Positions 196-13,716 of a DNA stretch of 48,488 bases are shown here, in pieces. The stretch covers positions 1-48,488 of the forward strand of contig RFNG01000044.1 in NCBI GenBank assembly GCA_009927275.1, read 5' to 3'. The position numbers and the translations under genes were made by a program. The DNA is from Sphingobacteriia bacterium (GTDB lineage Bacteria; Bacteroidota; Bacteroidia; B-17B0; Aurantibacillaceae). The notes beneath the pieces are model-generated. The model saw nothing but the letters and a program-made list of their open reading frames with translations. It ran no database searches and was not told where the DNA came from. Positions within the stretch are counted from its first letter, which is position 1. The number at the start of each line of letters is the position of its first letter.

Positions 196-1336
196 AATGC
201 CTTCTCCTCTTTTAATACACAAAACTTATCATAAAAACTACGTGTAACATACCCTTTTTTATACAATAAAAAGAAAAAAGGCCTAAGTCTTTCAAACGTA
301 CGTTTATATGTTGGATAATCGGTATAATGCTTATTGGGCGCATTCATAATGCCATCCCACTGCTTATCATCATAACTCAAACGCGTTTTTATCTCGGTTA
401 AAAGATCCTTCTCAAAAGGTTTTGGTTCTTTGATCTTTTGCAAAGCTTCGTCCCTCGACATTTGTCCACTTCGTACAAGTGCCGAATACTCACACCATCG
501 TAAATCAATTCCAAATTTTACAGGCAAATAATAATTATTAATGAAGTACGCTGTACGGTTTTCCATATGATGACCTCCATACCATTGCCAACCATATTCT
601 TTTGTAAGGAATTTCTTTGTTTCGTCTTTTTATAATCCATGTAATAAAGCGGTCTAAATTTTTTAATCTTGTTCACTACCATCCACTTTATCCATTTACT
701 TAACCATAAGAGTGGTGTTGACTTTATCTTTCCATCACCAAATTTTTTATGAATAGATTTGATGTATTTAGCATCCATATAGAACCATCCCGGAGGCGAA
801 ACACCTTCCGTGCGAAATGAATGTCCCTCCCAAATATGTTTCACTCCATACTTTTCACAAGCCATATAATGCGTAGTTGCCAAGGCGAGATCGGTTGCTG
901 CTTCAAATTCTGGAACTGATGCTTTAAGCAAAGAGCGCTGTATGGCTTCAAACTCACTATTGTCAACAACATATGTAAAAAGGTCAATGTTTAATTTATC
1001 AATTATAGTTTTAATATTTTCTACTGCGATCTTAGAATTATATGTATTGTCGAAGTGAACAGCAAGAACACGCAAACCATAAACATTCTTAGCCAAATGT
1101 AACATATACGATGAATCGCATCCTCCACTAACACCAATCACAACGTCATACGGTTTACCCATCCCATCTTTTTTCATTATCTCAACATATGCATTAATGA
1201 TTTTTCTACCCGCTTCTCCAGTAGGATATTGGGAATTCATAGAATCGTATTGCTCACAATAATTACAAATACCTTCTGTGTTAAAAGTAATCTTGGGAAT
1301 ATCAGAATGGTAAATACAACGATTACAGGTTTGCAT
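192..1336 (-). pseudogene. wbpG: WbpG/PseA-like N-acetyl sugar amidotransferase, frameshifted
   Basis: Two overlapping pieces in different frames (518-1336 and 192-566) form one protein of about 381 residues, the usual length for this family. The N-terminal part has two CxxC pairs (Cys4/7 and Cys24/27, probable zinc site) and the ATP-pyrophosphatase P-loop SGGCDS at residues 70-75. The break lies in a run of five T at 627-631; a sixth T restores a continuous frame reading K-K-D-E-T-K-K-F-L and then G-W-Q-W-Y-G-G-H-H before the C-terminal piece. Family members convert an acetamido to an acetamidino group, using ammonia supplied by the HisH2/HisF2 pair, both present in this operon. The frameshift is probably a sequencing indel but could be a real inactivation. 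Confidence 0.85.
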
Positions 1337-1923
1337 TAGATGAAATAATCAAATCGGATTTCATTTTCTGTAATAATTACAGTACCAATTTGTTTTGCCG
1401 GTGTGCCGGCCACAATAGCATATTCAGGAAATGATTTATTTACAAAACTTTGCGCAGCTACTATACAGTGATGCCCAAGTGATACATTTTTACCGATGAT
1501 AGAATGTGGTCCAATATACACATTATCGCCAATAGATACTGGTAATCGTTCAATGGGTAATTGACCATTGCTTAATGTAGCTTTTACATTATCATGTGAA
1601 TATATATGAACGCCTGCTGAAATGGTGCAGTGATTTCCAATGGATAACCCGCCAGAACCATCAAGTATCGTAAACATTCCAATCCAGCAATTTTCACCCA
1701 CTTTTACATTGCCAAATACATAACTAGAATCGTAAATATTTGTGCCTCTTCCAAAACCCAAACGTTGAGCCCTTTGCCAACGATCATTAAGATGATCGGC
1801 CATTGGCAAAGAACGCTGCAGATGCTTTAGAAATCCTTGTTCCAAAACTTCATTTAATTTATCTGCAGTCTCAAACTGATCTTGTAATGCTTTTTTTCCC
1901 TCCAGTATTTTTTTACGATCCAT
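1336..1923 (-). CDS. Hexapeptide-repeat (left-handed beta-helix) acyltransferase
   Basis: The 195-residue protein has an alpha-helical N-terminal segment (residues 1-55) followed by imperfect hexapeptide repeats from about residue 60 to 180, for example V-K-V-G-E-N, L-S-I-G-N-H, V-S-I-G-D-N and N-V-S-L-G-H, and ends with the typical V-A-G-T-P-A-K turn. This is the fold of sugar O- or N-acetyltransferases such as WbpD, MaaA and VatD. A likely role is acetylation of a nucleotide-activated sugar or of the finished repeat unit. It starts 3 bases after the epimerase stop and its stop overlaps the wbpG start, so it is translationally linked to both. The acceptor sugar cannot be told from sequence. 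Confidence 0.8.
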   Translation of the reverse strand: MDRKKILEGKKALQDQFETADKLNEVLEQGFLKHLQRSLPMADHLNDRWQRAQRLGFGRGTNIYDSSYVFGNVKVGENCWIGMFTILDGSGGLSIGNHCTISAGVHIYSHDNVKATLSNGQLPIERLPVSIGDNVYIGPHSIIGKNVSLGHHCIVAAQSFVNKSFPEYAIVAGTPAKQIGTVIITENEIRFDYFI

Positions 1924-1926
1924 TTT

Positions 1927-2883
1927 TTACTTTGTTTGATTTCTAATCCATTCTGCAGTTCGTAATACACCTTCTTCCAAATCTACCTGAGCTTTAAAAT
2001 CTAATATGTCTTTTGCTTTAAGAACACTTGGAATTCGAATGGCAATATCAGCTGATAAAGGTGGATCAAAAACAATTTTCGATTCTGATTTTAAAACACG
2101 GCAAACAAGTTGTGCCAATCCTAATATTGTAATAACAGCACGAGCATTTCCAATATTAAAACTTTCTCCAATCGCATTTGGATTCTCTATGCATCGTTTT
2201 AAACAGTCTACAAAATCTTCAACAAAACACCATGCTCTAATTTGTGAGCCATCACCATCTATATGAATATCTTGATGTTTTAACGCCTTATTAATAAAAA
2301 TTTGCATTGCGCCTTCACCCGTTTGCCCTGGACCATAAACATTAAATGGTCTTACTGTTACAACTGGTAATTGGTATTGTTTATAATATGCATGTGCTAA
2401 ATGCTCCCCAGCTAATTTACTTACGGCGTAAGTCCAACGTGCTTCACCAGCACTTCCCGCTACAGTTTGATCACTTTCAGATGATTTGAATGCCATTGAT
2501 CCAAATACTTCTGAGGTTGAGAAATCTATAAACCTACCTTTAATTCCATTTTCGTGGGCTGCCCTGAGCGTATTTGCGGTTCCCATCATATTCACTTCCA
2601 TGGTTTTAACAGGATCTTTTATTACGGTATCTATTCCTGCAATTCCTGCCGCATGAATTACAATATCACTTCCTTTCATAGCACCACTTAACATGTCAAA
2701 ATCAAGCACATCTCCTTTAACGATTTTTATATTCTTGTGATTTGCAATACTGCTTGCCGAAATAGTATCACGATGAAAATTATCGTAAACTATAATTTTG
2801 TTACACTCAATATATTGCATAATAAGCGTATTGGCTATAAACCCGGCGCCACCGGTTATAAAAAATGTTTTGTTTTGTATCAT
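1927..2883 (-). CDS. NAD-dependent nucleotide-sugar epimerase/dehydratase (extended SDR)
   Basis: This 318-residue protein shows the extended short-chain dehydrogenase pattern. The glycine motif GGAGFIA at residues 11-17 binds NAD(P). D-N-F at 34-36 follows the second strand, GDVLD is near 57, and the catalytic pair is Tyr152-Lys156 in YAVSK with Ser near 122-124 (F-S-T-S-E-V-F-G). [11 protein letters not shown] is the usual substrate-loop signature. It should convert an NDP-hexose by epimerisation or 4,6-dehydration. Start and stop overlap or nearly touch the neighbouring aminotransferase and acyltransferase genes, which suggests a keto-sugar, amination, acylation sequence. The exact reaction (GalE-like, 4,6-dehydratase or other) is not resolved. 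Confidence 0.85.
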
Positions 2884-3986
2884 TCTATCAATTTATTGAC
2901 TGTTTTTGAAATATAATCTATTTGCTGTTCGTTTAATAGGTCATACATCGGCAAAGCAAGCCCTTGCATATAAGCTGTAAATGCATTTGGAAATAATTTT
3001 TTACAATCAAGTTTATATTTCATTTGATAAGCTGTAACGTGTGGTATGCATTGAGCTCCATAATTTGTTCCTATTTTGTGTTGCTTTAACTTTTCAATAA
3101 GCGTATCCCTATTGATTCCACCCCTTACGATTACATGATAGGTTTGCCACGTATGATTGGCATAGCTTGGAACTACCGGTAAAATTAATTTATTTTGGTC
3201 AAGTTTTTGTTGATAGAGTTTTGACAATTTTTGTTTGTGTAAAATACCTTTTTGTAGACGATCCATTTGCGAAAGCACCATTGCAGCTTGAAAATCAGTC
3301 ATTCGGTAATTGTATCCAAATTCTATAAAATCCATTTTACCATCCATCACTTCAATTCCATGGTTTCTTAATTGTTTTATTTTCCTGTCGTATGCCGCAT
3401 CTTTTGTTAATAACACACCTCCTTCCCCACTTGTGATTGCCTTACGTGGATGAAAGGAAAATGAAGCAAGGTCGCCAAATGTACCAACATGTTGTCCTTT
3501 ATAAGAAGCACCAAGTGCGCAAGCGGCATCTTCAATAATAAATAACTTATACTTTTTAGCAATTATATTTATAGCATCAATATCACATGATAAACCAAAT
3601 TCGTGTACGGGAATAATAGCCTTAGTTTTTGATGTGATGGCATTTTCTATCCTGCCAACATCTATGTTAAATGTATTCAAGTCAATATCGACAAATACCG
3701 GAGTTGCTCCAACATGCTCAACAACATTAGCAGTTGCAACATATGAGAAAGCAGGAACTATAACCTCATCGCCTTGTTTAATACCAAGTATTTTTAAAGC
3801 CAAGTGAAGTGTAACAGTGCCATTACTCAAAGCACTTGCATGTATTAAGTTATTATATTGTTCAAAGGTTTTTTCTAGTTCGGTTACATATTTACCTTGT
3901 ACAAGCATGCCACTTCTAATAACCGATTCCACTTGTTGTAAGTCTTTATCGGTGATATTTGGTTTTGACAAGGGTATAAACTCCAT
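2880..3986 (-). CDS. DegT/DnrJ/EryC1 family PLP-dependent sugar aminotransferase
   Basis: The 368-residue length is typical of nucleotide-sugar aminotransferases. PLP contacts are visible: Asp153 in I-E-D-A-A-C and the Schiff-base Lys182 in S-F-H-P-R-K, followed by [19 protein letters not shown] near residue 54 binds the phosphate. Enzymes of this family move an amino group from glutamate to a 3- or 4-keto NDP-sugar (WbpE, ArnB, PseC). It overlaps the epimerase/dehydratase start by 4 bases (ATGA), so the two probably act in sequence. An amino sugar made here could be acetylated by the neighbouring acyltransferase and then amidinated by WbpG. Position specificity cannot be read from sequence. 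Confidence 0.88.
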
Positions 3987-3987
3987 A

Positions 3988-5271
3988 CTAATTTATCTTC
4001 CAAGAAGCATTTGGTCTTACATAGCCTAATTTAAAGTCGTATATTATACCTGTTGAATTATTGTTACTCACATTAAGTATGTTAATCTCCACAAGATTTT
4101 CAAGATAATCTAGAGTGAGTCCATCACTTAAATGAGCGCCAAACGTAAGAAAATATTTACCTGGCTGAAAGTTATTTTCGATATCAAGTTCAAAATATAC
4201 ACGATCAGAAGTTACATTATAATATCCATTCTTATAGGCATTCGTGGTATGCGCCAATTCAATCCCTTCAATACTCAAAATTCGAACGTCGAACATTACA
4301 TTTGAATAGTGTTCCAAGAATTCAATTTCACATTTTATAGATATAGTTTCATTAAAATATATCACATTTCCGTTTACAAATTCAGGATTTGTTAGTTCTA
4401 TCTTCCTGTAAAAAGCCTTACCTGTGTTAAAAGTGCGGTGGTGTGTTTCAATCTGTCCTCTATTTTCACTAGCGTTCAAACCAGATAAATAATAGGATAT
4501 ACCATCGGTTACAGAGCCATCAAAAGCTAAAGCTCCATCTTGCAAAACTAAAGCACGTTTGCATAAAGATTTTACAGCAGCCATATTATGGCTCACAAAT
4601 AAAACCGTTCGACCGTTTCCGGCAACATCTCTCATTTTTCCAATACACTTTTCTTGAAATTCAATATCTCCAACAGCAAGCACTTCATCTATTACTAAAA
4701 TATCCGGCTCAAGGTGGGCGGCCACTGCAAAAGCTAAACGTACGTACATTCCGCTACTGTAACGTTTTACCGGTGTATCAATATATTTTGCTACACCACT
4801 AAATTCAATTATCTCATCTAATTTCGAAGCTATCTCAAACTTTTTCATTCCAAGAATAGCACCATTTAAAAATACATTATCTCTACCCGAAAGATCAGGA
4901 TGAAAACCGGTGCCAACCTCAAGTAATGATGCTAAACGACCTTTATACCTTAGTTTTCCTTTTGTAGGCTCTGTTACTCTTGATAATATTTTTAATAGCG
5001 TTGATTTTCCGGCACCATTTTTACCAATAATGCCAACGATTTCTCCATGGTTAATATTAAAATTTACATCGCGTAATGCCCATACATACTTAGAGTCTCC
5101 TTTCATGCCAGAATTATCACGCTTATTAACTTCTCCCACTTTCAGAAACGGATCTTCGTTTCCTTTAAGTTTTGCCATTAGCCGTTGCATATCATCTGCT
5201 AGACTCGACATGCCAACAAACCCTAATTTGTATTGTTTTGAAATATGTTCAGCCTGAATGACAGAGCTCAT
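3988..5271 (-). CDS. wzt: Wzt-like polysaccharide ABC exporter ATPase with C-terminal carbohydrate-binding domain
   Basis: I chose the ATG at 5271 (427 residues), one base past the Wzm stop, rather than an upstream ATG inside wzm. The nucleotide-binding domain has Walker A GKNGAGKST (residues 83-91), an ABC signature starting YSSG near 171, Walker B ILVIDE at 191-196 and the H-loop in F-V-S-H-N. After about residue 270 comes a beta-rich C-terminal domain of the Wzt_C type, which in E. coli O9a recognises the modified end of the O-polysaccharide before export. Wzt pairs with Wzm to move lipid-linked polysaccharide across the inner membrane. The extra domain implies that a terminal modification marks the chain as complete. 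Confidence 0.93.
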   Translation of the reverse strand: MSSVIQAEHISKQYKLGFVGMSSLADDMQRLMAKLKGNEDPFLKVGEVNKRDNSGMKGDSKYVWALRDVNFNINHGEIVGIIGKNGAGKSTLLKILSRVTEPTKGKLRYKGRLASLLEVGTGFHPDLSGRDNVFLNGAILGMKKFEIASKLDEIIEFSGVAKYIDTPVKRYSSGMYVRLAFAVAAHLEPDILVIDEVLAVGDIEFQEKCIGKMRDVAGNGRTVLFVSHNMAAVKSLCKRALVLQDGALAFDGSVTDGISYYLSGLNASENRGQIETHHRTFNTGKAFYRKIELTNPEFVNGNVIYFNETISIKCEIEFLEHYSNVMFDVRILSIEGIELAHTTNAYKNGYYNVTSDRVYFELDIENNFQPGKYFLTFGAHLSDGLTLDYLENLVEINILNVSNNNSTGIIYDFKLGYVRPNASWKIN

Positions 5272-5272
5272 G

Positions 5273-6127
5273 TTAAACGGTGTCCATGAATCGTTTCTCA
5301 ACTTTTGAGAATATATACATTCCTAAAATAAGAGTTAGTAGTATAATTGTGATGTCTAATAGTAAGAGGTTTATGCTAAATAAACCATTTGAGGTAAATG
5401 CAAATTTACAACCCTCAATAATTCCAGCAAGTGGATTTGCCAATAATAATTTATAAATAAAAGAATGACTGTCTATGGCAAATAAGGGATATGCAATTGG
5501 CGTTGCGTACATTAGTAATTGTATTCCAAAACCTACCAACATTGTTAGATCGCGGTATTTAGTAGTGAATGACGACACCATCAAACCCAAACCCATTGCA
5601 AATAAAGCAAGAGCTATTAGGTAAATGGGTAATAAAAATAATGAGAGATTAGGCATAAGGCTTACCCCTTGAAAAATAACACCGTATAAATAAACAATAA
5701 GAAATAAACCAAACTGAATTGAAAATTTAAATATGCCGGATAATAACACCGAAATTGGAACGGTGAGGCGGGGAAAATAAACTTTACTAAATACGGATGC
5801 ATTCATCACAAATGTTGCCGAAATTTTATTAAAACATTCGGCAAAGAAATTCCAAAATGACAACCCCAATAAATAAAATGCAAATGAAGAAATATTTGGA
5901 GGTGTCTGAATTTTTGCTATATTACCAAATACAATAGTAAAAACGATACTTGTAAGTATAGGTTGAATAACAAGCCATAAAGGCCCCAAGATTGTCTGCT
6001 GATAACTCGACTTTATATCGCGCATTAAAAACAAAAAAATTAGATCTTTGTATTCCTTAAGCTCTTTTATTATTCTAGTCAGCTTAAACGGGTTGCCTTT
6101 TTCAATTATATGCCATTTATCAGTCAT
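5273..6127 (-). CDS. wzm: Wzm-like polysaccharide ABC exporter permease
   Basis: The 284-residue protein has six predicted hydrophobic segments and fits the ABC-2 polysaccharide/polyol exporter permease family: an amphipathic N-terminus (ELKEYKDLIFLFLMRDIK) is followed by Q-Q-T-I-L-G-P-L-W-L-V-I-Q-P, a strongly conserved signature. It forms the membrane channel for undecaprenyl-linked O-antigen or capsule, powered by the Wzt product one base downstream. Its ATG at 6127 touches the stop of the HisF2 gene, so export and sugar-modification genes share one transcript. Together Wzm/Wzt show that the glycan is polymerised in the cytoplasm before export rather than by a Wzx/Wzy route. Confidence 0.93.
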   Translation of the reverse strand: MTDKWHIIEKGNPFKLTRIIKELKEYKDLIFLFLMRDIKSSYQQTILGPLWLVIQPILTSIVFTIVFGNIAKIQTPPNISSFAFYLLGLSFWNFFAECFNKISATFVMNASVFSKVYFPRLTVPISVLLSGIFKFSIQFGLFLIVYLYGVIFQGVSLMPNLSLFLLPIYLIALALFAMGLGLMVSSFTTKYRDLTMLVGFGIQLLMYATPIAYPLFAIDSHSFIYKLLLANPLAGIIEGCKFAFTSNGLFSINLLLLDITIILLTLILGMYIFSKVEKRFMDTV

Positions 6128-6882
6128 TATTCTTGTATCACGTTTTCTCGTGTCGGAAAATTAATTAATACCCCCATTCCCTTTTTACTGTAAACAGCCA
6201 TGCTTCCAATAGCTGCAGCTTGTGCATTGCTTTTATAAAGAACCTCTTTTAAATGATTTAAATTACCGCAACCACCGGCTGCAATAACAGGAACATCTAC
6301 CGAAGAAACTACTTGTTCAATTACTTCATTATCATAACCTTCCCAAGTGCCATCTTTATCTACACTTTGCACCATCAATTCTCCTATCCCTAATTCTTTT
6401 ACTAAGTAATTTGCGTATGCTATAATATCATACTTGATTTTATGTCCTGTATACGAATGCGGTGATTTTGAACTAAACATGGGTTTTTTAAAGTCTATGC
6501 AAGCCACAACTGCTTGCGATCCGTATGCCGCTATTACATTTTTTATAGTTTCAGGATGTTCCTGAATTAAAGAATTAACAATCACTTTTTCTATTCCCAA
6601 CTTATACAAAGTTGCAAAATCATCAAAGGTTTTTACGCCACCACCGTAGGCAAAAGGCATAAAGGCTTCCCCTGCCATATCAGCTATTTTGGTAAAATTT
6701 GGTCTGCGTTTTTGTTTTGAAGCATTAATATCAATTAAAATTAATTCATCCACTTCCTTTTCATTAAAAATCTTTATGGCATTTATAGGATCCCCAATAT
6801 ACGAGGGGTTTTTAAATTTAACCGTTTTTACCAATCCACTTCCGTCGTATAGTAAACAAGGTATAATTCGTTTAAGTGCCAT
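6127..6882 (-). CDS. hisF2: HisF2: HisF-like ammonia-channel subunit for sugar amidination
   Basis: The true ATG is at 6882 (251 residues); it overlaps the hisH stop by one base (TGATG). The protein is a (beta/alpha)8 barrel close to HisF and opens with K-R-I-I-P-C-L. The position equal to catalytic Asp11 of HisF is Leu11 here, while the Asp130 equivalent is kept (C-I-D at 128-130). Loss of Asp11 argues against imidazole-glycerol-phosphate synthesis. In O-antigen loci such homologues accept ammonia from HisH2 and pass it to WbpG/PseA for acetamidino formation, and both partners are encoded here. It is therefore not evidence for a histidine operon; no other his genes are nearby. Confidence 0.88.
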   Translation of the reverse strand: MALKRIIPCLLYDGSGLVKTVKFKNPSYIGDPINAIKIFNEKEVDELILIDINASKQKRRPNFTKIADMAGEAFMPFAYGGGVKTFDDFATLYKLGIEKVIVNSLIQEHPETIKNVIAAYGSQAVVACIDFKKPMFSSKSPHSYTGHKIKYDIIAYANYLVKELGIGELMVQSVDKDGTWEGYDNEVIEQVVSSVDVPVIAAGGCGNLNHLKEVLYKSNAQAAAIGSMAVYSKKGMGVLINFPTRENVIQE

Positions 6883-7490
6883 CAAAGTTTTGCAAAATTC
6901 TCAAATACCTTCATTCCAAAATTTAAACTTTTTTCAGGATGAAATTGGGTTCCATAAATGTTCTCTTTATTTACAGCACAAGTAAATTCTCTACCAAAAT
7001 TACTTGTAGCTATACTATGTTCGCTATTAAAACATTTTACAAAATAGGAATGAACAAAATAAAATCGATTTCTTCCTTTATCCAGTAATTTATTTTCACG
7101 CTTAACATCAATATAATTCCATCCCATATGCGGTATTTTTAATTTCATTGCAGAATCAGGAATAAATTTTATGGTTTCGGCATCAATCCATCCTAATCCC
7201 GGTTTTATTCCTTCTTCACTTCGGTTTGTAAGTAATTGCATGCCTAAACAAATACCAAGTACAGGTACTTTTTCTTGTAATACTTTGTTGTTTAAGATTG
7301 GAATTAAACCCGATGCTTCCAGGTTTATCATTCCTGCATCAAATGCGCCCACACCTGGCAATAATAACTTTTGTGCTTTTGCAATTATATCCTTATCGCA
7401 TGAAATACAAACATCTTTAACGTTTAATTTTTTAAACATATTAAAAACAGAAGCCACATTTCCAAGTCCATAATCTACAATAACAATCAT
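6882..7490 (-). CDS. hisH2: HisH2: glutamine amidotransferase subunit for sugar amidination
   Basis: I place the start at the ATG at 7490 (202 residues, M-I-V-I-V-D-Y-G), four bases after the NusG-like stop; an upstream in-frame start would add a lysine-rich tail overlapping that gene. It is a class I glutaminase with the full triad: Cys81 in G-I-C-L-G-M-Q, and His184 and Glu186 in Q-F-H-P-E-K-S. It should hydrolyse glutamine to ammonia, which the HisF2 barrel then channels to the WbpG-like enzyme. Gene order hisH2-hisF2 and wbpG in one operon matches known acetamidino-sugar loci such as the Pseudomonas aeruginosa O5 wbp cluster. Confidence 0.9.
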   Translation of the reverse strand: MIVIVDYGLGNVASVFNMFKKLNVKDVCISCDKDIIAKAQKLLLPGVGAFDAGMINLEASGLIPILNNKVLQEKVPVLGICLGMQLLTNRSEEGIKPGLGWIDAETIKFIPDSAMKLKIPHMGWNYIDVKRENKLLDKGRNRFYFVHSYFVKCFNSEHSIATSNFGREFTCAVNKENIYGTQFHPEKSLNFGMKVFENFAKL

Positions 7491-7494
7491 TTTT

Positions 7495-7986
7495 TTATTT
7501 TTTTTCAAGTATTTCTGAAGGAACATGCACTGTTAATGAATACCCAATACTATCAATCGTAATGCGATATACATGACCTCCAGTAATCGCTTTAATAGCA
7601 CCCATGAGACCTTTGAATGGGCCGTACTTAATTAAAACTTTGTCGCCCGGTTGAAGTGATTGTGAAAACGATCCCTCAACGAAATACCCTTTTGCTTCAA
7701 TTGACTTTAATGCTGCTATTTCAACGTCTCTTACTATGGCATCTCCACCGTTATAGCGCACATAACTTATAACGCCATGTGCTTTAAATACGGTGTCACG
7801 TACCATATCATCCACTTTAACAAAAACATAACCATTAATTATTGGGAAACTTACCGTTTTTATTCTATCACTCCACTTGCGACGTTCTGTTCGGAGCGGA
7901 ACATAACTTTCTAAACCAAGTTCAAATAATTTTTTATTTACTTTTTTTTCACTGCGTGATGCAACGTATAATACTTTCCAATTCAT
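7495..7986 (-). CDS. NusG-like (UpxY family) transcription antiterminator of the glycan operon
   Basis: The 163-residue protein has an N-terminal NGN domain (W-K-V-L-Y-V-A-S-R-S-E-K-K-V, then S-F-P-I-I-N-G-Y-V-F-V-K-V) and a C-terminal KOW segment (P-G-D-K-V-L-I-K-Y-G-P-F-K-G-L-M-G). Paralogues of NusG at the head of capsule or O-antigen operons in Bacteroidota (UpxY) let RNA polymerase read through the long operon they belong to. It sits directly upstream of hisH2 with a 4-base gap, which fits that role. The housekeeping NusG normally lies beside secE and the ribosomal L11 genes, which are not here. I see no clear terminator in the leader on which it might act. Confidence 0.88.
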   Translation of the reverse strand: MNWKVLYVASRSEKKVNKKLFELGLESYVPLRTERRKWSDRIKTVSFPIINGYVFVKVDDMVRDTVFKAHGVISYVRYNGGDAIVRDVEIAALKSIEAKGYFVEGSFSQSLQPGDKVLIKYGPFKGLMGAIKAITGGHVYRITIDSIGYSLTVHVPSEILEKK

Positions 7987-8073: not shown

Positions 8074-8604
8074 TTATGAATTCCATATCAACAACGGATG
8101 CAAATCCTTTTGTTGAATGGTATTAATATCAAATTCACCGGACTTAAAACAACTGAAAGTTATTTTTTTGTTCAGTTTTTTTGCGGCTTTACCTATCAAT
8201 TCTTCTAAATATAATATGTTAATATCTCCAACAAAAACAAGCTCAATTGTGTCAGTTTCAAGCCCCTTGGCTAACTGCCCAACGAGATACACTTTTTCAA
8301 GATTTCCAATATGCTTCATTACATAATCAACCAAATGGTTTATCCCTGTTATTTTTAAAAGCATATGATGCAAATCATTAAATAATAGATGGTTTTGATT
8401 GGCTTTAAAAAGTTTTTTATTTCCTTCGGTATAAGAAATTAAAAAACCCGCCTTTTCAAACTTATTAAGTTCAAGTCTTATAGAATTAGTGGATTCGCCA
8501 AATTCTTCTTCTAACCCTCTTAAATAAGATACCGAATTTCTGTTTAAAAAAAATTTTAAGAGTACCTTAATACGTGTTTTTGAAGAAATCAGGATATCAA
8601 ACAT
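8074..8604 (-). CDS. Winged-helix regulator with degenerate nucleotidyltransferase-like C-domain
   Basis: The start is the ATG at 8604 (176 residues, M-F-D-I-L-I-S-S-K-T-R); an upstream TTG is possible but less likely. Residues 1-75 look like a winged helix: helices, then a recognition-helix region (E-F-G-E-S-T-N-S-I-R-L-E-L-N-K-F) and a wing (G-F-L-I-S-Y-T-E-G-N-K-K-L-F). After about residue 100 the pattern resembles a minimal nucleotidyltransferase fold, but its G-S and D-x-D residues are absent (V-G-Q-L-A-K-G, then D-T-I-E-L-V-F-V). I know similar proteins heading surface-glycan loci in Flavobacteria; their mechanism is unknown to me. It lies between wzc and the antiterminator, so regulation of the locus is the natural guess. 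Confidence 0.75.
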   Translation of the reverse strand: MFDILISSKTRIKVLLKFFLNRNSVSYLRGLEEEFGESTNSIRLELNKFEKAGFLISYTEGNKKLFKANQNHLLFNDLHHMLLKITGINHLVDYVMKHIGNLEKVYLVGQLAKGLETDTIELVFVGDINILYLEELIGKAAKKLNKKITFSCFKSGEFDINTIQQKDLHPLLIWNS

Positions 8605-8686
8605 ATATTGAGTAATAAATTTACTCAAAAAAATTTAAATAATCCAATACCTAATCTATATAATTTAAAATCAATTACTTATAAAA

Positions 8687-11146
8687 TTAAGTATTGGGGG
8701 GTTTTGGTGTTTCAGAATTGCGATATCCCCTATACCCACCATATCCACCATACCCACCATATCCGCCATAATTATTATACCCGTTTCCATAGCCATAGCC
8801 ATAGCCATAACCGTATCCGTAGCTATATCCGTATCCTTTGTAATAATAACGTTGTGAGGCTCTTCGAATTTCATTTAATACTAGGTTTATGGTTGAAATC
8901 TTATTAGTTTCTGCTATTTGATTTACAAAATTAACAACGCGTTTAGTAGCTGATTTTGTGTTTAAAACAAATATGGTAGTGTCAACAAATTGCATTAAAT
9001 ATAAAGAGTCGGATAGTATTCCAGCAGGTGGCGTATCTATTACAACAAATTCATAATTCTTTTTTACAAATAGAATTAATTCGTGCATTTTTTCTGAAAG
9101 AATGTACTCAGAAGGATTTGGTGGTATTGGACCCGCAAGCATGCAAAAAAGATTATCTATTTGAGATTGTATGATTATTTCATTTATATCATGCTGTCCA
9201 TTAATATAAGTTGTTATACCCTTTTCAGGAGCATTATAACCAAAGCGCTGAAAAACCCTAGGTTTGTGTAAGTCTAATTCTAAAATAATGGTTTTCTTCC
9301 CTGTTTTAGCTAATATATTTGCCAGGTTAACACTGGTAAACGTTTTTCCTTCTCCCGGAGCATGTGATGTTACTAAAATGGTTTTTAACTCTGATTCAAC
9401 ATTAATATACTTCAGATTTGTTCTGAGATTTCTGAACGCTTCTGAGATTTTTGAGTTCGGTATTTCATTAGTTACTATGCCTTCCGTTTCTTGATTTTTG
9501 ATTTTAGGAAGCCCCCCAATTAATGGTAATAATGAAACTTCTTTTAGTTGTTCTACACTTTCTATTTTTGTAAAAAAAACAAACCTCATAATTACAATTA
9601 AAATTGCAATGAAAAATCCGGTTGTTACAAACTGCTTTTCAATTGCTGGAATATTCGGAGAGTCAACACCTACATATCTTGGCGATTCAATAAGTTTAAC
9701 CTCGGGGACAATGCTGGCTTTTGCAATTTTAGTGCTTGCCTTTTTTTCAAGTAAAAAATTATATAAGTCCTCAGAGACTTTAGATTTACGTTGAATATCT
9801 ACAATACCTCTTTGTTTTGTGGGTATGTGTTTTGCATTGTACGTATACGCATTAACTTCCATCTCAATATTCTGTATTCTTTGAAATGCAGCGTTACGGG
9901 CATTTACAATATAAGTTAATAAATTCTGTTTTGTGCTTTTGATTGTAGCTTTTAGGTCAATTACGGATGGATTATCTGTTGTTGAATTTCCTGTAAGTCT
10001 ACTCAGCTCAATTTGTTTTTCATAGAGTTCGCTTACGGCACGATTCATAAATCCTGTTTTTTCAAAAACGTACATGCTAGGTGGTAAAAAAGAAGGATCC
10101 TTATCTTGAATGATATAATATTCCAAATCTTTTAAAGCCCTTAATTCCAGTTGAACTTCAGACTTCATTTTATCGTAATCCGCGATTTTTGAAAACAGAT
10201 CATTTTTTTCCCATTCTAAATCTATAATGGATTGTTTAGTTTTAAAATTCTGAAGTGTGTCTTCAATTGTTCGGAGCGAACTTGTAATATCAGATAATTG
10301 TTTATCAATAAAATCAAGAGTTCTGTCATTAAGTTCCAATTTGGATTTTAATTTACTTCTAGAATAGACATTATAAAGCGTATCAAGAACTAAAACTGCG
10401 CGCTCCCATAATATATCTTTTAATGAAATTTTAAGTATTTGAGTATACTCGGGATTTTCAATTATAAGATTGGAACGAATATCTGATATTAATTTTTCAT
10501 TTGAATGAATTTGAAATTTATATAACATGTTTTGAAGCGTGTTATTTTGAAATTGTTTGTTGTAATCTGAGGCATGTATATTGAAAATAAAATCTGTAGT
10601 AACCAATGTTTTATTAAAAAAACCAATTATTTTTTTAGTTTCATTGTTTACAATGTAGGACAATTCGTATTTATCTGAATTAATAATTTTTAAAAAAAAA
10701 GGTAGCTCGTAAAAATTAGGGCCCATGGAACTGACTTCCACTAAAAAGGGCATTCCGTTAAATTGTTCTATTGTTTTAACCTTTCCAACAATAAAATATG
10801 AAACCTCCAGCTTAGCTTTAAGCTGTGTTACAACCTCACTAATTAAATCATAAGATTGTATTATACGTTGCTCATTGGAATTGTCGATATAAGTGCTGTA
10901 ATTAACAAAATTTGCGTCAGTTACAAGGTTGTTTTTATAATACATATCATCCGATTGAATTAAAAATTCAGTTGATGCTTTATGAACTATAGTTAACCTA
11001 TATGTGTATAAATACCCCAATACATAAGCGATTAGTGGTAATAAAATCAAAATCCACCAATTTTTTACAATGATGCGTCTAATAAAATTTAAATCGCTTA
11101 AAGATAAAATTGGTGCAGTTTTTCCCTGCAAAGATATTTTTGACAT
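8687..11146 (-). CDS. wzc: Wzc-type polysaccharide co-polymerase / tyrosine autokinase
   Basis: The 819-residue protein has a first membrane helix at about 29-50, a Wzz-like periplasmic region with coiled coil (about 270-350), a second helix at about 508-526 and a cytoplasmic BY-kinase domain. Kinase motifs are Walker A APGEGKT (596-602), Walker A' LELDLHKPR (622-630) and Walker B VVIDTPPAG (701-709). The C-terminal tail (767-809) is almost pure Gly-Tyr repeats, the usual autophosphorylation cluster but unusually long. Such proteins control chain length and export of exopolysaccharide. It is upstream of the glycan operon on the same strand and diverges from the exosortase unit. Wzc normally serves Wzx/Wzy pathways, whereas this locus encodes Wzm/Wzt. 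Confidence 0.93.
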   Translation of the reverse strand: MSKISLQGKTAPILSLSDLNFIRRIIVKNWWILILLPLIAYVLGYLYTYRLTIVHKASTEFLIQSDDMYYKNNLVTDANFVNYSTYIDNSNEQRIIQSYDLISEVVTQLKAKLEVSYFIVGKVKTIEQFNGMPFLVEVSSMGPNFYELPFFLKIINSDKYELSYIVNNETKKIIGFFNKTLVTTDFIFNIHASDYNKQFQNNTLQNMLYKFQIHSNEKLISDIRSNLIIENPEYTQILKISLKDILWERAVLVLDTLYNVYSRSKLKSKLELNDRTLDFIDKQLSDITSSLRTIEDTLQNFKTKQSIIDLEWEKNDLFSKIADYDKMKSEVQLELRALKDLEYYIIQDKDPSFLPPSMYVFEKTGFMNRAVSELYEKQIELSRLTGNSTTDNPSVIDLKATIKSTKQNLLTYIVNARNAAFQRIQNIEMEVNAYTYNAKHIPTKQRGIVDIQRKSKVSEDLYNFLLEKKASTKIAKASIVPEVKLIESPRYVGVDSPNIPAIEKQFVTTGFFIAILIVIMRFVFFTKIESVEQLKEVSLLPLIGGLPKIKNQETEGIVTNEIPNSKISEAFRNLRTNLKYINVESELKTILVTSHAPGEGKTFTSVNLANILAKTGKKTIILELDLHKPRVFQRFGYNAPEKGITTYINGQHDINEIIIQSQIDNLFCMLAGPIPPNPSEYILSEKMHELILFVKKNYEFVVIDTPPAGILSDSLYLMQFVDTTIFVLNTKSATKRVVNFVNQIAETNKISTINLVLNEIRRASQRYYYKGYGYSYGYGYGYGYGYGNGYNNYGGYGGYGGYGGYRGYRNSETPKPPNT
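8731..8845 (-). repeat. Gly-Tyr coding repeats in the wzc tail
   Basis: The 3' end of wzc has short tandem repeats: hexamer units reading TATGGC/TACGGA-like codon pairs (Gly-Tyr), then 9-base units for Gly-Gly-Tyr. Because units are multiples of three, gain or loss of copies would change the number of phosphorylatable tyrosines without shifting the frame. Confidence 0.75.
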
Positions 11147-11187
11147 TTAACATACTAAGTTACTTATTTTTTATGATAAATAATTTG

Positions 11188-11195
11188 TACTTTTG
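11188..11195 (+). promoter_or_regulatory. Bacteroidota-type -7 element upstream of the exosortase cargo gene
   Basis: TACTTTTG matches the TAnnTTTG -7 consensus. It lies 8 bases before the ATG at 11204, so the transcript would have a very short leader or none. A clear -33 TTG is not obvious. Confidence 0.5.
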
Positions 11196-11203
11196 TTAGT
11201 ATA

Positions 11204-11410
11204 ATGAAATCCAAGATTAAATTCATTTTTATCATAACCTTTTGTACCCAACTTTCTGGTTTTTCAATACCCGCACCACCTACAAATAATCAACCAAACT
11301 GTTGGCCGCCCCCCTGTGTTCCCATTGACGGCGGCATTATTGCGCTTGCAGCAGCCGGAATTGCTTATGGGTTTTACAAAAGTCGTGTTTTACACAAAGC
11401 CCCAAAATGA
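11204..11410 (+). CDS. Small PID-CTERM-like exosortase cargo protein
   Basis: The protein has 68 residues. An N-terminal signal sequence (K-S-K-I-K-F-I-F-I-I-T-F-C-T-Q-L-S-G-F-S) is followed by a proline-rich stretch with two cysteines (N-C-W-P-P-P-C), then V-P-I-D-G-G, a hydrophobic helix (IIALAAAGIAYGFY) and a basic tail (K-S-R-V-L-H-K-A-P-K). The tripartite end of motif, membrane helix and basic tail is the layout of exosortase sorting signals, and PIDGG matches the PID-CTERM variant of Bacteroidota. After processing at both ends only about 20-25 residues would remain. The stop overlaps the exosortase start (ATGA), which makes it a dedicated cargo candidate. Function beyond sorting is unknown. 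Confidence 0.75.
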   Translation: MKSKIKFIFIITFCTQLSGFSIPAPPTNNQPNCWPPPCVPIDGGIIALAAAGIAYGFYKSRVLHKAPK

Positions 11411-11948
11411 CCCTTTGGTCGCAAATTTCAAACCGATTTACAAGTTTTAAAAGTCCTCAGATTGTTTTTTTAATACGCGCGTTTTTAGGGTATTCGGTTT
11501 TATTTATAACTTATCAATTTATACTAATTCCGTACACATCATTTGATCAATGGGTAATTCGAGCTTTAGTAAATCTTCTGAGGCTTTATTAAAGCCTTTT
11601 GGCCCAACCTTTTCAGCGCATGAAAATTCAGAAATGCAAGTTATTGGTATAGATGGTTCTACCGGCGTTTGGATTGGAACACCCTGTAACGGCATACATT
11701 TAATTGGTTTGTTTTCAGTCTTTATAATGGCCTACCCGGGTTCTTGGCGGCGTAAATTATATTATATTCCCTTTGGCATTTTGCTATTATTTGGCTATAA
11801 TAGCATACGCATTTGCGCTTTAGCCTGGTTATCTAAATTTCATCCGCAATGGCTATTGTTTAATCATAATTATACTTTTACCGCAAGCGCCTATATTTTG
11901 GTTTTTGTGTTGTGGATGGTTTGGGTAAAACGCTTATCTAAAACTTAA
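11407..11948 (+). pseudogene. Exosortase/archaeosortase family protein (XrtF-like), frameshifted
   Basis: Two pieces in different frames (11407-11592 and 11550-11948) make one integral membrane protein of about 180 residues, the short-form size of Bacteroidota exosortases. One extra A in the AAA at 11571-11573 joins ...R-A-L-V-K-S-S-E-A-L-L-K. The putative catalytic residues are all present after joining: Cys94 in G-T-P-C-N-G-I, Arg135 in Y-N-S-I-R-I and His154 in F-N-H-N-Y-T-F, each at or near a membrane helix. Exosortases are transpeptidase-like enzymes that cleave C-terminal signals and probably transfer the cargo to a membrane anchor. It lies between a PID-CTERM-like cargo and a small membrane partner. 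The frameshift is probably a sequencing indel; XrtF versus another subclass is uncertain. Confidence 0.82.
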
Positions 11949-11949
11949 A

Positions 11950-12417
11950 ATGCGGTTTTTAGTTATACTTATTGTGTTTCTGTGCCTAGGATTTATTCGT
12001 ATGTTTTGGTTTGAACATTATAATGTTTACCTCTACCAAACCTTTTATAATAAACCCCGATGGGATGAACAACTGTTTTGGATGTTTAAATCATACTCCT
12101 ATACTACTTTGTATTATTTCAAATTTGTATTTACAATATTTTTTGTGGCAATTTTTTATTGTTTAAGTTATTTAAGCTTTAAATGGCTTGGTGCGGCATC
12201 TGAACGTAAACCATTACAATATACTTATACAATTCTGATAGGTACCGCCTTGGTACTGGGTAGTTTAAGCTGGATTGAAAATACGCGTTTACAACAAATT
12301 GTGTACAGTATAAACTTATGGCTGATGGGTATTGCCGAATCGCCATTGCCCTTTTTATTACTTTGGGCCAGCAGAAATTTAAATCCCATACCCAAATCCA
12401 GCGTAAAAAATCCGTAA
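11950..12417 (+). CDS. Exosortase system-associated membrane protein
   Basis: This 155-residue protein has about four hydrophobic helices, at roughly 2-18, 55-78, 88-106 and 117-142, with a soluble segment around W-F-E-H-Y-N-V-Y-L-Y-Q-T-F-Y near the first helix. It starts one base after the exosortase stop. Small polytopic proteins are encoded directly downstream of XrtF in Flavobacteria and annotated only as exosortase F system-associated; length and position fit that family. No enzymatic motif is visible. It could help hold cargo or the lipid carrier near the exosortase, but this is inference from position. Confidence 0.65.
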   Translation: MRFLVILIVFLCLGFIRMFWFEHYNVYLYQTFYNKPRWDEQLFWMFKSYSYTTLYYFKFVFTIFFVAIFYCLSYLSFKWLGAASERKPLQYTYTILIGTALVLGSLSWIENTRLQQIVYSINLWLMGIAESPLPFLLLWASRNLNPIPKSSVKNP

Positions 12418-12441: not shown

Positions 12442-13716
12442 ATGGTGCCAAAAGATCCAAGTATTTTTAAACTCATTGCTAAAGAAAAACAACGTCAAAC
12501 CCAAGGTGTTGAACTAATTGCGTCTGAAAATTATGTAAGTGATGCCGTAATGAAAGCCATGGGCAGTATTTTAACCAATAAATATGCCGAAGGCTTACCT
12601 AAAAAAAGATACTATGGCGGATGTGAAGTTGTAGACGAAGTTGAGCAATTGGCTATTGATAGGGCTAAAAACCTATTTGGTGCAGCATGGGTTAACGTAC
12701 AGCCGCATTCTGGCGCACAGGCCAATGCTGCAGTTATGCTGGCCTGTTTAAAACCCGGTGATACCATTTTAGGATTTGATTTATCACATGGTGGACATTT
12801 AACACACGGTTCGCCGGTTAATTTTTCCGGACGTCTTTACAAGGCAACATTTTATGGCGTAAAAAAATCAACAGGCCTTTTGGATTATGATGCCATGGAG
12901 CAAACCGCAATAAAAGAACGGCCTAAACTTATTATTTGCGGGGCCAGTGCCTATTCACGTGACTGGGATTATGCACGTATACGTAATATAGCAGATCGTA
13001 TTGGAGCCTTGGTTTTGGCTGATATTTCGCATCCCAGCGGCCTAATAGCCAAAGGTATTTTAAACGATCCCCTGCCCCATTGCCATATAGTAACCACTAC
13101 CACACATAAAACATTACGTGGTCCTCGTGGTGGTATGATTTTAATGGGTAAAGATTTTGAAAATCCCTTTGGTGAACGCACTCCAAAAGGCGAACTTAAA
13201 ATGATGAGCCATGTTTTGGATATGGCTGTTTTTCCGGGTACACAGGGTGGCCCCTTAGAGCATGTTATTGCGGCAAAAGCAGTAGCATATAACGAAGCGT
13301 TAAGCGACTCTTATATGCATTACATGATTCAGGTTGTTAAAAATTCTAAGGCCATGGCAAATGCCTTTTCACAAAAGGGGTATCATATTGTATCCGGCGG
13401 AACCGATAACCATTTATTTTTAATTGATTTACGTAATAAATCTATAACTGGAAAAGAGGCGCTTGCTGCACTGGAACAAGTTCATATAACTGTAAATAAA
13501 AACATGGTGCCCTTTGATGATAAATCGGCATTTGTTACATCTGGAATTCGAATTGGCAGCCCGGCCATTACTACACGTGGACTTAAAGAACAACAGTGTA
13601 TTAAAATTGTAGATTTAATTGATGAGGCGTTAATAAAACGAAATGATCCCAAGGCATTAATTAAAATAGAAAAAAAGGTTCATACCCTGATGAACAGGTA
13701 TCCATTATTTTCATAA
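12442..13716 (+). CDS. glyA: Serine hydroxymethyltransferase
   Basis: The 424 residues match the family length. Visible signatures are E-L-I-A-S-E-N-Y at 24-31, the N-K-Y-A-E-G-L-P turn, Y-Y-G-G-C near 57-61, and the PLP-binding Lys223 in [13 protein letters not shown]. The enzyme interconverts serine plus tetrahydrofolate and glycine plus 5,10-methylene-tetrahydrofolate in the cytoplasm and supplies one-carbon units. It begins 24 bases after the exosortase-associated gene on the same strand and is followed after 3 bases by the nucleoside transporter, so read-through transcription is likely even though function differs. Confidence 0.97.

Follow-up and report, generated by a model that had tools for sequence, protein, structure and literature searches.

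In the exosortase systems described to date, proteins are exported via Sec, held in the membrane by a C-terminal tail and cut by a cysteine protease, and the exosortase genes are usually found at polysaccharide loci (PMC12188702, PMC1569441). The targets of exosortase A (EpsH), the PEP-CTERM proteins, carry a signal peptide, a short motif, a helix and a basic tail and are tied to polysaccharide loci (PMC1569441), and this system often has twenty or more targets (PMC3237569). Dedicated sorting systems, in which the single target of the genome is encoded beside its enzyme, were described for rhombosortase and GlyGly-CTERM proteins (PMC3237569). The XrtF system (TIGR04128 with the partner TIGR04127; Fjoh_1448/1449) pairs the gene of a small exosortase with that of a small membrane protein downstream. 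Deletion of xrtF or of the partner gene in Flavobacterium johnsoniae impairs biofilm formation and surface colonisation (PMC10936215), and the targets of XrtF were stated to be not yet known in a 2025 paper co-authored by the original describer of exosortases (PMC12188702). Exosortase X (XrtX, NF046081), the PID-CTERM micropeptides (NF046080) and the XrtX-associated membrane protein (NF046082) are catalogued as NCBIfam families, so that the unit analyzed here does not constitute a new enzyme type. In the open literature no paper was found on PID-CTERM, XrtX or CWPPPC.

The window, i.e., the whole analyzed stretch of 48,488 nucleotides, originates from a draft genome of 2.29 Mb in 165 contigs. 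It encodes a cargo with a PID-CTERM tail, followed by an XrtX-type exosortase and by a divergent copy of the partner (Table 1), and the positions initially assigned to all parts were correct when re-checked on the sequence. With all three parts together, the window belongs to the XrtX/PID-CTERM system, as do its relatives, and the recurrence of this block throughout the order puts the unit far beyond chance. The cargo and wzc genes are divergent and share, as initially described, an intergenic region of 57 bases (11147-11203). The claim of overlapping genes holds for cargo and xrtX, as the cargo stop codon overlaps the xrtX start by four bases (ATGA, 11407-11410), but not for the partner, which starts one base after xrtX. 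Of the proposed promoter, the motif TACTTTTG is present, whereas no TTG was found at -33 spacing from it in the window sequence. TAnnTTTG was detected within 100 nt upstream in 22 of 69 regions of relatives against 10.2 ± 2.8 expected, a modest over-representation that is consistent with a putative Bacteroidota -7 element upstream of the cargo.

Table 1. Positions of the XrtX/PID-CTERM unit, its parts and its neighbours in the window.
Feature	Position	Strand	Basis
TAnnTTTG-like (Bacteroidota -7) element TACTTTTG	11188-11195	+	sequence; 16 nt 5' of the cargo ATG
PID-CTERM micropeptide precursor (cargo), 68 aa	11204-11410	+	NF046080, 35.6 bits
Cargo: putative signal peptide	about 11204-11266	+	by eye and simple rule
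Cargo: C-W-P-P-P-C	11300-11317	+
Cargo: PIDGG	11321-11335	+
xrtX, exosortase X, split frame	11407-11948	+	NF046081, two fragments; alignment
xrtX: first frame	11407-11592	+	NF046081, 18.2 bits (N-terminus of the model)
xrtX: second frame	11550-11948	+	NF046081, 140.2 bits
xrtX: catalytic Cys, Arg, His	11685-11687, 11808-11810, 11865-11867	+	alignment with C87, R128, H147
XrtX-associated membrane protein (partner), 155 aa, five predicted helices	11950-12417	+	homologues at the same place match NF046082
wzc-type polysaccharide co-polymerase/tyrosine autokinase, divergent neighbour	8687-11146	-	TIGR01007, 154.8 bits
Surface polysaccharide operon	518-7986	-	Pfam and NCBIfam matches
glyA-like gene, conserved neighbour downstream (context)	12442-13716	+	homologues downstream in relatives

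The following profile cut-offs were applied: 26 bits for NF046080 (PID_CTERM), 170 for NF046081, 90 for TIGR04128, 25.7 for PF09721 and 108 for TIGR01007. The window cargo and Wzc score above their respective cut-offs. The window exosortase stays below those of XrtF (TIGR04128, 71.2 bits) and of Exosortase_EpsH (PF09721, 20.3 bits), and the PF09721 scan of the window genome returned no match because XrtX scores below the PF09721 cut-off. The locus resembles the XrtF system in its order of a small exosortase and a small membrane partner, but in most XrtF genomes the cargo is unlinked to xrtF, and it lacks the Cys-loop found here. From the PEP-CTERM system it differs by its motif, PID-GG instead of PEP, and by having one small cargo. 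It has the layout of one enzyme and one adjacent target in common with rhombosortase, which is, however, an unrelated enzyme, a serine rhomboid protease, and occurs in scattered genomes, in contrast to the class-wide habit of XrtX. The window partner itself does not match NF046082, while 44 of 49 alignment members at the same position do. AlphaFold predicted the partner as a protein of five helices with high confidence (pLDDT 93), and the XrtX model from a relative was good (pLDDT 87). Neither XrtX nor the partner matched a solved structure in the PDB by sequence or fold, and the structures therefore add no mechanism.

The first-pass annotation had proposed that the cargo is dedicated to its exosortase. 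In the window genome a scan for PID-CTERM proteins revealed a single match, the one that overlaps the start of xrtX, which is the arrangement of one target beside its enzyme known from dedicated systems (PMC3237569). The order was sampled with 87 genomes and comprises one family; in these, XrtX was found in 78 genomes, with scores above the 170-bit cut-off in 60 of the 87, and PID-CTERM in 71. All 71 positive genomes encode exactly one PID-CTERM protein and in 68 it adjoins xrtX; the three non-adjacent cases (G063, G065 and G066) belong to one genus, and in the genus g9 of the order cargo and xrtX are located on different contigs. Two genomes missed by the PID-CTERM model (G019 and G036) have the variant CWPPPCIPADNG at the expected place. 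The four-gene block, for which a search in close relatives had been suggested, is present throughout the order in the arrangement wzc (divergent), cargo, xrtX and partner, followed by glyA. Two of the three outcomes named in the first-pass annotation as speaking against it, further PID-CTERM proteins in the genome and a lack of the block in relatives, were thus not observed. The pattern thus names one tiny candidate substrate per genome, which makes the role of an exosortase in Bacteroidota testable.

The window cargo has a hydrophobic, signal-like N-terminus, a Pro-rich mature part with the C-W-P-P-P-C motif and, on its C-terminal side, the PIDGG motif, a hydrophobic helix and a basic tail; the match to NF046080 covers residues 39-61. 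Precursor length in the order ranges from 68 to 82 aa, and the distance from the estimated signal peptide cut to PID has a median of 18 residues (range 8-28), the signal peptide ends being rule-of-thumb estimates from a simple rule and not from a trained predictor. The mature part is rich in Pro/Gly and variable apart from its end, where a Cys pair directly precedes PID in all 74 distinct cargos of the order and reads CWPPPC in 71 of them. This agrees with the initial description of a mature peptide that is short and contains a C-W-P-P-P-C loop, and the loop is the most conserved mature part among the cargos. It lies outside the catalogued PID-CTERM definition because the NF046080 model, with its 25 positions, starts after the loop motif. 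With about 20 residues the peptide is too small to act as an enzyme, and its value must therefore lie in its attachment or in its recognition by something. The prolines also allow the reading that the cargo is a translation-arrest leader, in which the poly-proline stretch stalls ribosomes and regulates xrtX, the peptide having no role at the surface. PPPPP and CWPPPC are indeed placed just upstream of the translationally coupled xrtX, but the sorting tail 3' of the prolines is conserved and the unlinked cargos L080, L081, L082, L131 and L171 keep both the Cys motif and the tail, which makes such a leader very improbable.

Across the class Bacteroidia (158 genomes sampled), PID-CTERM was found in 73 genomes, 56 of which have exactly one, and an XrtX-kind exosortase in 98. 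The exosortase is present in 72 of the 73 PID-CTERM genomes and in 26 of the 85 others (p = 1.7e-21). If strong XrtX is defined by a best match of the genome of at least 140 bits on the XrtX model, 45 of 47 strong-XrtX genomes possess a cargo, and 41 of these 45 genomes have the Cys pair, compared to 0 of 26 cargo genomes with weaker exosortases by the same rule. The 41 Cys-pair genomes span 20 families, or 21 with the window's own. A looser Cys pair, not counted by the pattern, was seen in the low-score genome G218. New here is the pattern of one cargo per genome within the conserved wzc block of the order, with a Cys-loop that holds across these families of the class. The genomes G112, G151 and G181, all from one family, carry two exosortases and two kinds of cargo, and the Cys-loop cargo adjoins the strong XrtX. 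In these genomes the gene after the second exosortase encodes not the partner but an aspartate-semialdehyde dehydrogenase-like protein (L190, L191, L197, L229 and L230), and the mature part of the second cargo may have only about 7 residues (MPPNAT before PIDGG). The top-scoring XrtX of the class sample (G140, 248 bits) differs from the window clade, as its genome has five cargos without Cys instead of one cargo with the C-W-P-P-P-C loop. Co-evolution of Cys-loop and exosortase score, considered on the basis of a class-wide Fisher test, was rejected as the tree needs just about two changes for the Cys-loop trait, which therefore reflects deep inheritance and not repeated independent coupling. 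In an independent named collection (uncultured Bacteroidia, Flavobacteriales and Crocinitomicaceae), which shares part of its genomes with the first search, nearly every locus contains the triple of cargo, xrtX and partner.

A sample of 60 Flavobacteriaceae-like genomes, the family of G208, whose name was inferred from the XrtF match, allowed a comparison with XrtF. All 24 genomes with PID-CTERM encode XrtF, and PID-CTERM was found in 0 of 17 genomes without XrtF (p = 2.4e-5, which is not a strict probability as the genomes are related). At the threshold used, 19 XrtF genomes had no detected PID-CTERM and the pairing is therefore incomplete. PID-CTERM micropeptides are thus candidates for XrtF targets in this family. 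The cargos of the family (L138, L331, L336, L342, L346 and L349) are micropeptides such as ...PPPPPPGLPIDGG.... At two further loci (L332 and L335; G279 and G253) a second, weakly XrtF-like exosortase adjoins a PID-type cargo with a Cys-rich KKCGKCGxxxxxGKC; this resembles another dedicated pair, with a different and possibly metal-binding cargo body.

The tie to wzc and to a polysaccharide locus, pointed out in the first-pass annotation, was found both in the window and in its relatives. Among 50 order loci with a wzc homologue at the unit, it is divergent in 47 and located downstream on the same strand in 3; the partner is present in 50 order loci and glyA follows just downstream in 52. Of 20 loci from the class, 14 have wzc at a distance of up to 15 kb and 8 have glyA, while wzc was not found nearby in the remaining 6. 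The window wzc heads a polysaccharide operon that encodes an N-acetyl sugar amidotransferase-like protein, a hexapeptide acetyltransferase, an epimerase, a DegT aminotransferase, a Wzt/Wzm ABC exporter, a HisF2/HisH acetamidino pair and an UpxY antiterminator. The locus of another family, L231, contains Wzx, Wzc, a hexapeptide enzyme, a PP-loop protein and a HisF-like gene. N-acetyl sugar amidotransferase and HisF2/HisH form a set typical of acetamidino sugars, of which the PP-loop and HisF-like genes recur at L231. Neighbourhood is no proof of function, as glyA is an equally conserved neighbour. At its C-terminus (8687-8800) the window Wzc ends in a long Gly-Tyr repeat tail, GYGYSYGYGYGYGYGYG..., which by eye is far richer in Tyr than the usual Wzc cluster. 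Beside wzc, a 184-aa protein (8074-8628) without Pfam or NCBIfam match is 90% identical to its copy in L070, the adjoining wzc being 51% identical, which suggests a possible recent exchange.

The observed pairing, the single cargo per genome, the conserved anatomy and the conserved wzc neighbourhood lead us to favour, by a narrow degree, a dedicated exosortase that trims a Cys-looped, Pro-rich micropeptide for use at the surface polysaccharide. By analogy to what is known of the exosortase family, the 68-aa precursor would be exported by Sec and its signal peptide removed, and the remaining Pro-rich segment of about 20 residues would be held in the inner membrane by the PID-GG, helix and basic tail, with the two cysteines probably closing the C-W-P-P-P-C loop beside the membrane. 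XrtX and its membrane partner would cut at or near PID-GG via the catalytic Cys, and XrtX would hand over the peptide, the most probable acceptor being a lipid- or sugar-linked one that belongs to the surface polysaccharide handled by the adjacent Wzc. The peptide may then cap, anchor or mark the surface glycan. The neighbouring polysaccharide genes, together with the biofilm defect of the xrtF and partner mutants (PMC10936215), make a role at the surface glycan the most likely one. If the peptide is joined to a polysaccharide or lipid, as we infer, exosortases would be shown to act as ligases and not as mere proteases.

Two other fates of the peptide bear on the same observations. If the trimmed peptide were set free as a signal or toxin-like microprotein with a disulfide loop, attached to neither glycan nor lipid, this would fit with the very short mature part before PID, the nearly invariant loop of 5-6 residues and the single copy per genome. 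Most pheromone or toxin peptides vary between species, unlike the loop of the cargo, which hardly varies, and the loci examined show no recurring gene for a receptor, for immunity or for a dedicated exporter, the recurring neighbours found being wzc, partner and glyA; we regard a free peptide as unlikely. The divergent wzc across a short shared promoter region in the order loci, and its presence near most class loci, would also agree with the peptide, or the membrane stub left after cleavage, being a small subunit that regulates Wzc or the polysaccharide exporter and is switched by the exosortase cut. The class loci without wzc nearby and the genus g9, with its cargo on another contig than xrtX, argue against such a subunit, to which we assign an equally small likelihood. 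Returning to the surface polysaccharide reading, its extension is more tentative: XrtX, and probably XrtF as well, would in much of Bacteroidia finish one Pro-rich micropeptide of some 10-30 residues that is attached to a glycan or lipid at the surface, with a Cys-x-Pro-Pro-Pro-Cys loop in the XrtX clade. We consider this general form possible though rather doubtful; if true, it would constitute a peptide-tagged polysaccharide made via an exosortase ligase, and no description of such a surface molecule was found in the literature searched.

Neither xrtX nor its cognate wzc was found in 7 order genomes. Joint loss was rejected as a sign of functional linkage since glyA is missing from the same assemblies too: all 8 tested of the 9 XrtX-negative order genomes also lack glyA, in a search that had no positive control of its own, and elsewhere the same glyA query matches relatives at 72-84% identity. 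Most of the nine negatives are therefore probably due to incomplete assembly, and nearly all members of the order may possess xrtX. In eight genomes that are up to 98% complete (G037, G053, G076, G029, G070, G072, G001 and G045) neither glyA nor xrtX was found, nor was wzc, save for a partial copy in G045, as if the XrtX locus were prone to being left unassembled or unbinned.

In the window genome the frame of xrtX is broken by a net change of one base near 11560-11590, which splits the protein, so that its match to NF046081 stays below the cut-off. The catalytic Cys, Arg and His, listed as present at first pass, are kept and align with invariant columns. It had also been supposed that the frameshift is a mere artefact; such an error cannot be assumed, because among the xrtX copies of the order that of the window evolves fastest. 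Its end branch of 1.51 is the longest of 45 and 6.9 times the median of 0.22, and the end branches of the window wzc (3.7 times the median), partner (4.6 times) and glyA (5.6 times) show that evolution is rapid throughout the lineage and most rapid in xrtX. A programmed frameshift was rejected, as there is no conserved slip site and the relatives have one intact frame. The broken enzyme frame may mean that the unit is in decay, or it may stem from a sequence error. For the window genome, we give little less than an even chance to the unit being a decaying relic without activity, the intact system existing only in relatives. Besides the frame change and the long xrtX branch, the near-invariant H122 is lost and the genome is small; on the other hand, the cargo tail, the Cys-loop, the catalytic triad and the partner frame are all intact, the fast evolution is common to the whole lineage, and mutation and error are inseparable from one draft assembly. 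Taken together, frame break and fastest branch lean towards real decay, a sequence error being possible as well. In-frame stops noted in the xrtX of several relatives were discarded, as they are mostly the terminal stop codon. Just one further xrtX in the order has a broken frame; it stems from a genome that is 56% complete (G061), and this copy (L036) is like that of the window, with a long second ORF in which the catalytic residues are kept and with the N-terminal frame lost.
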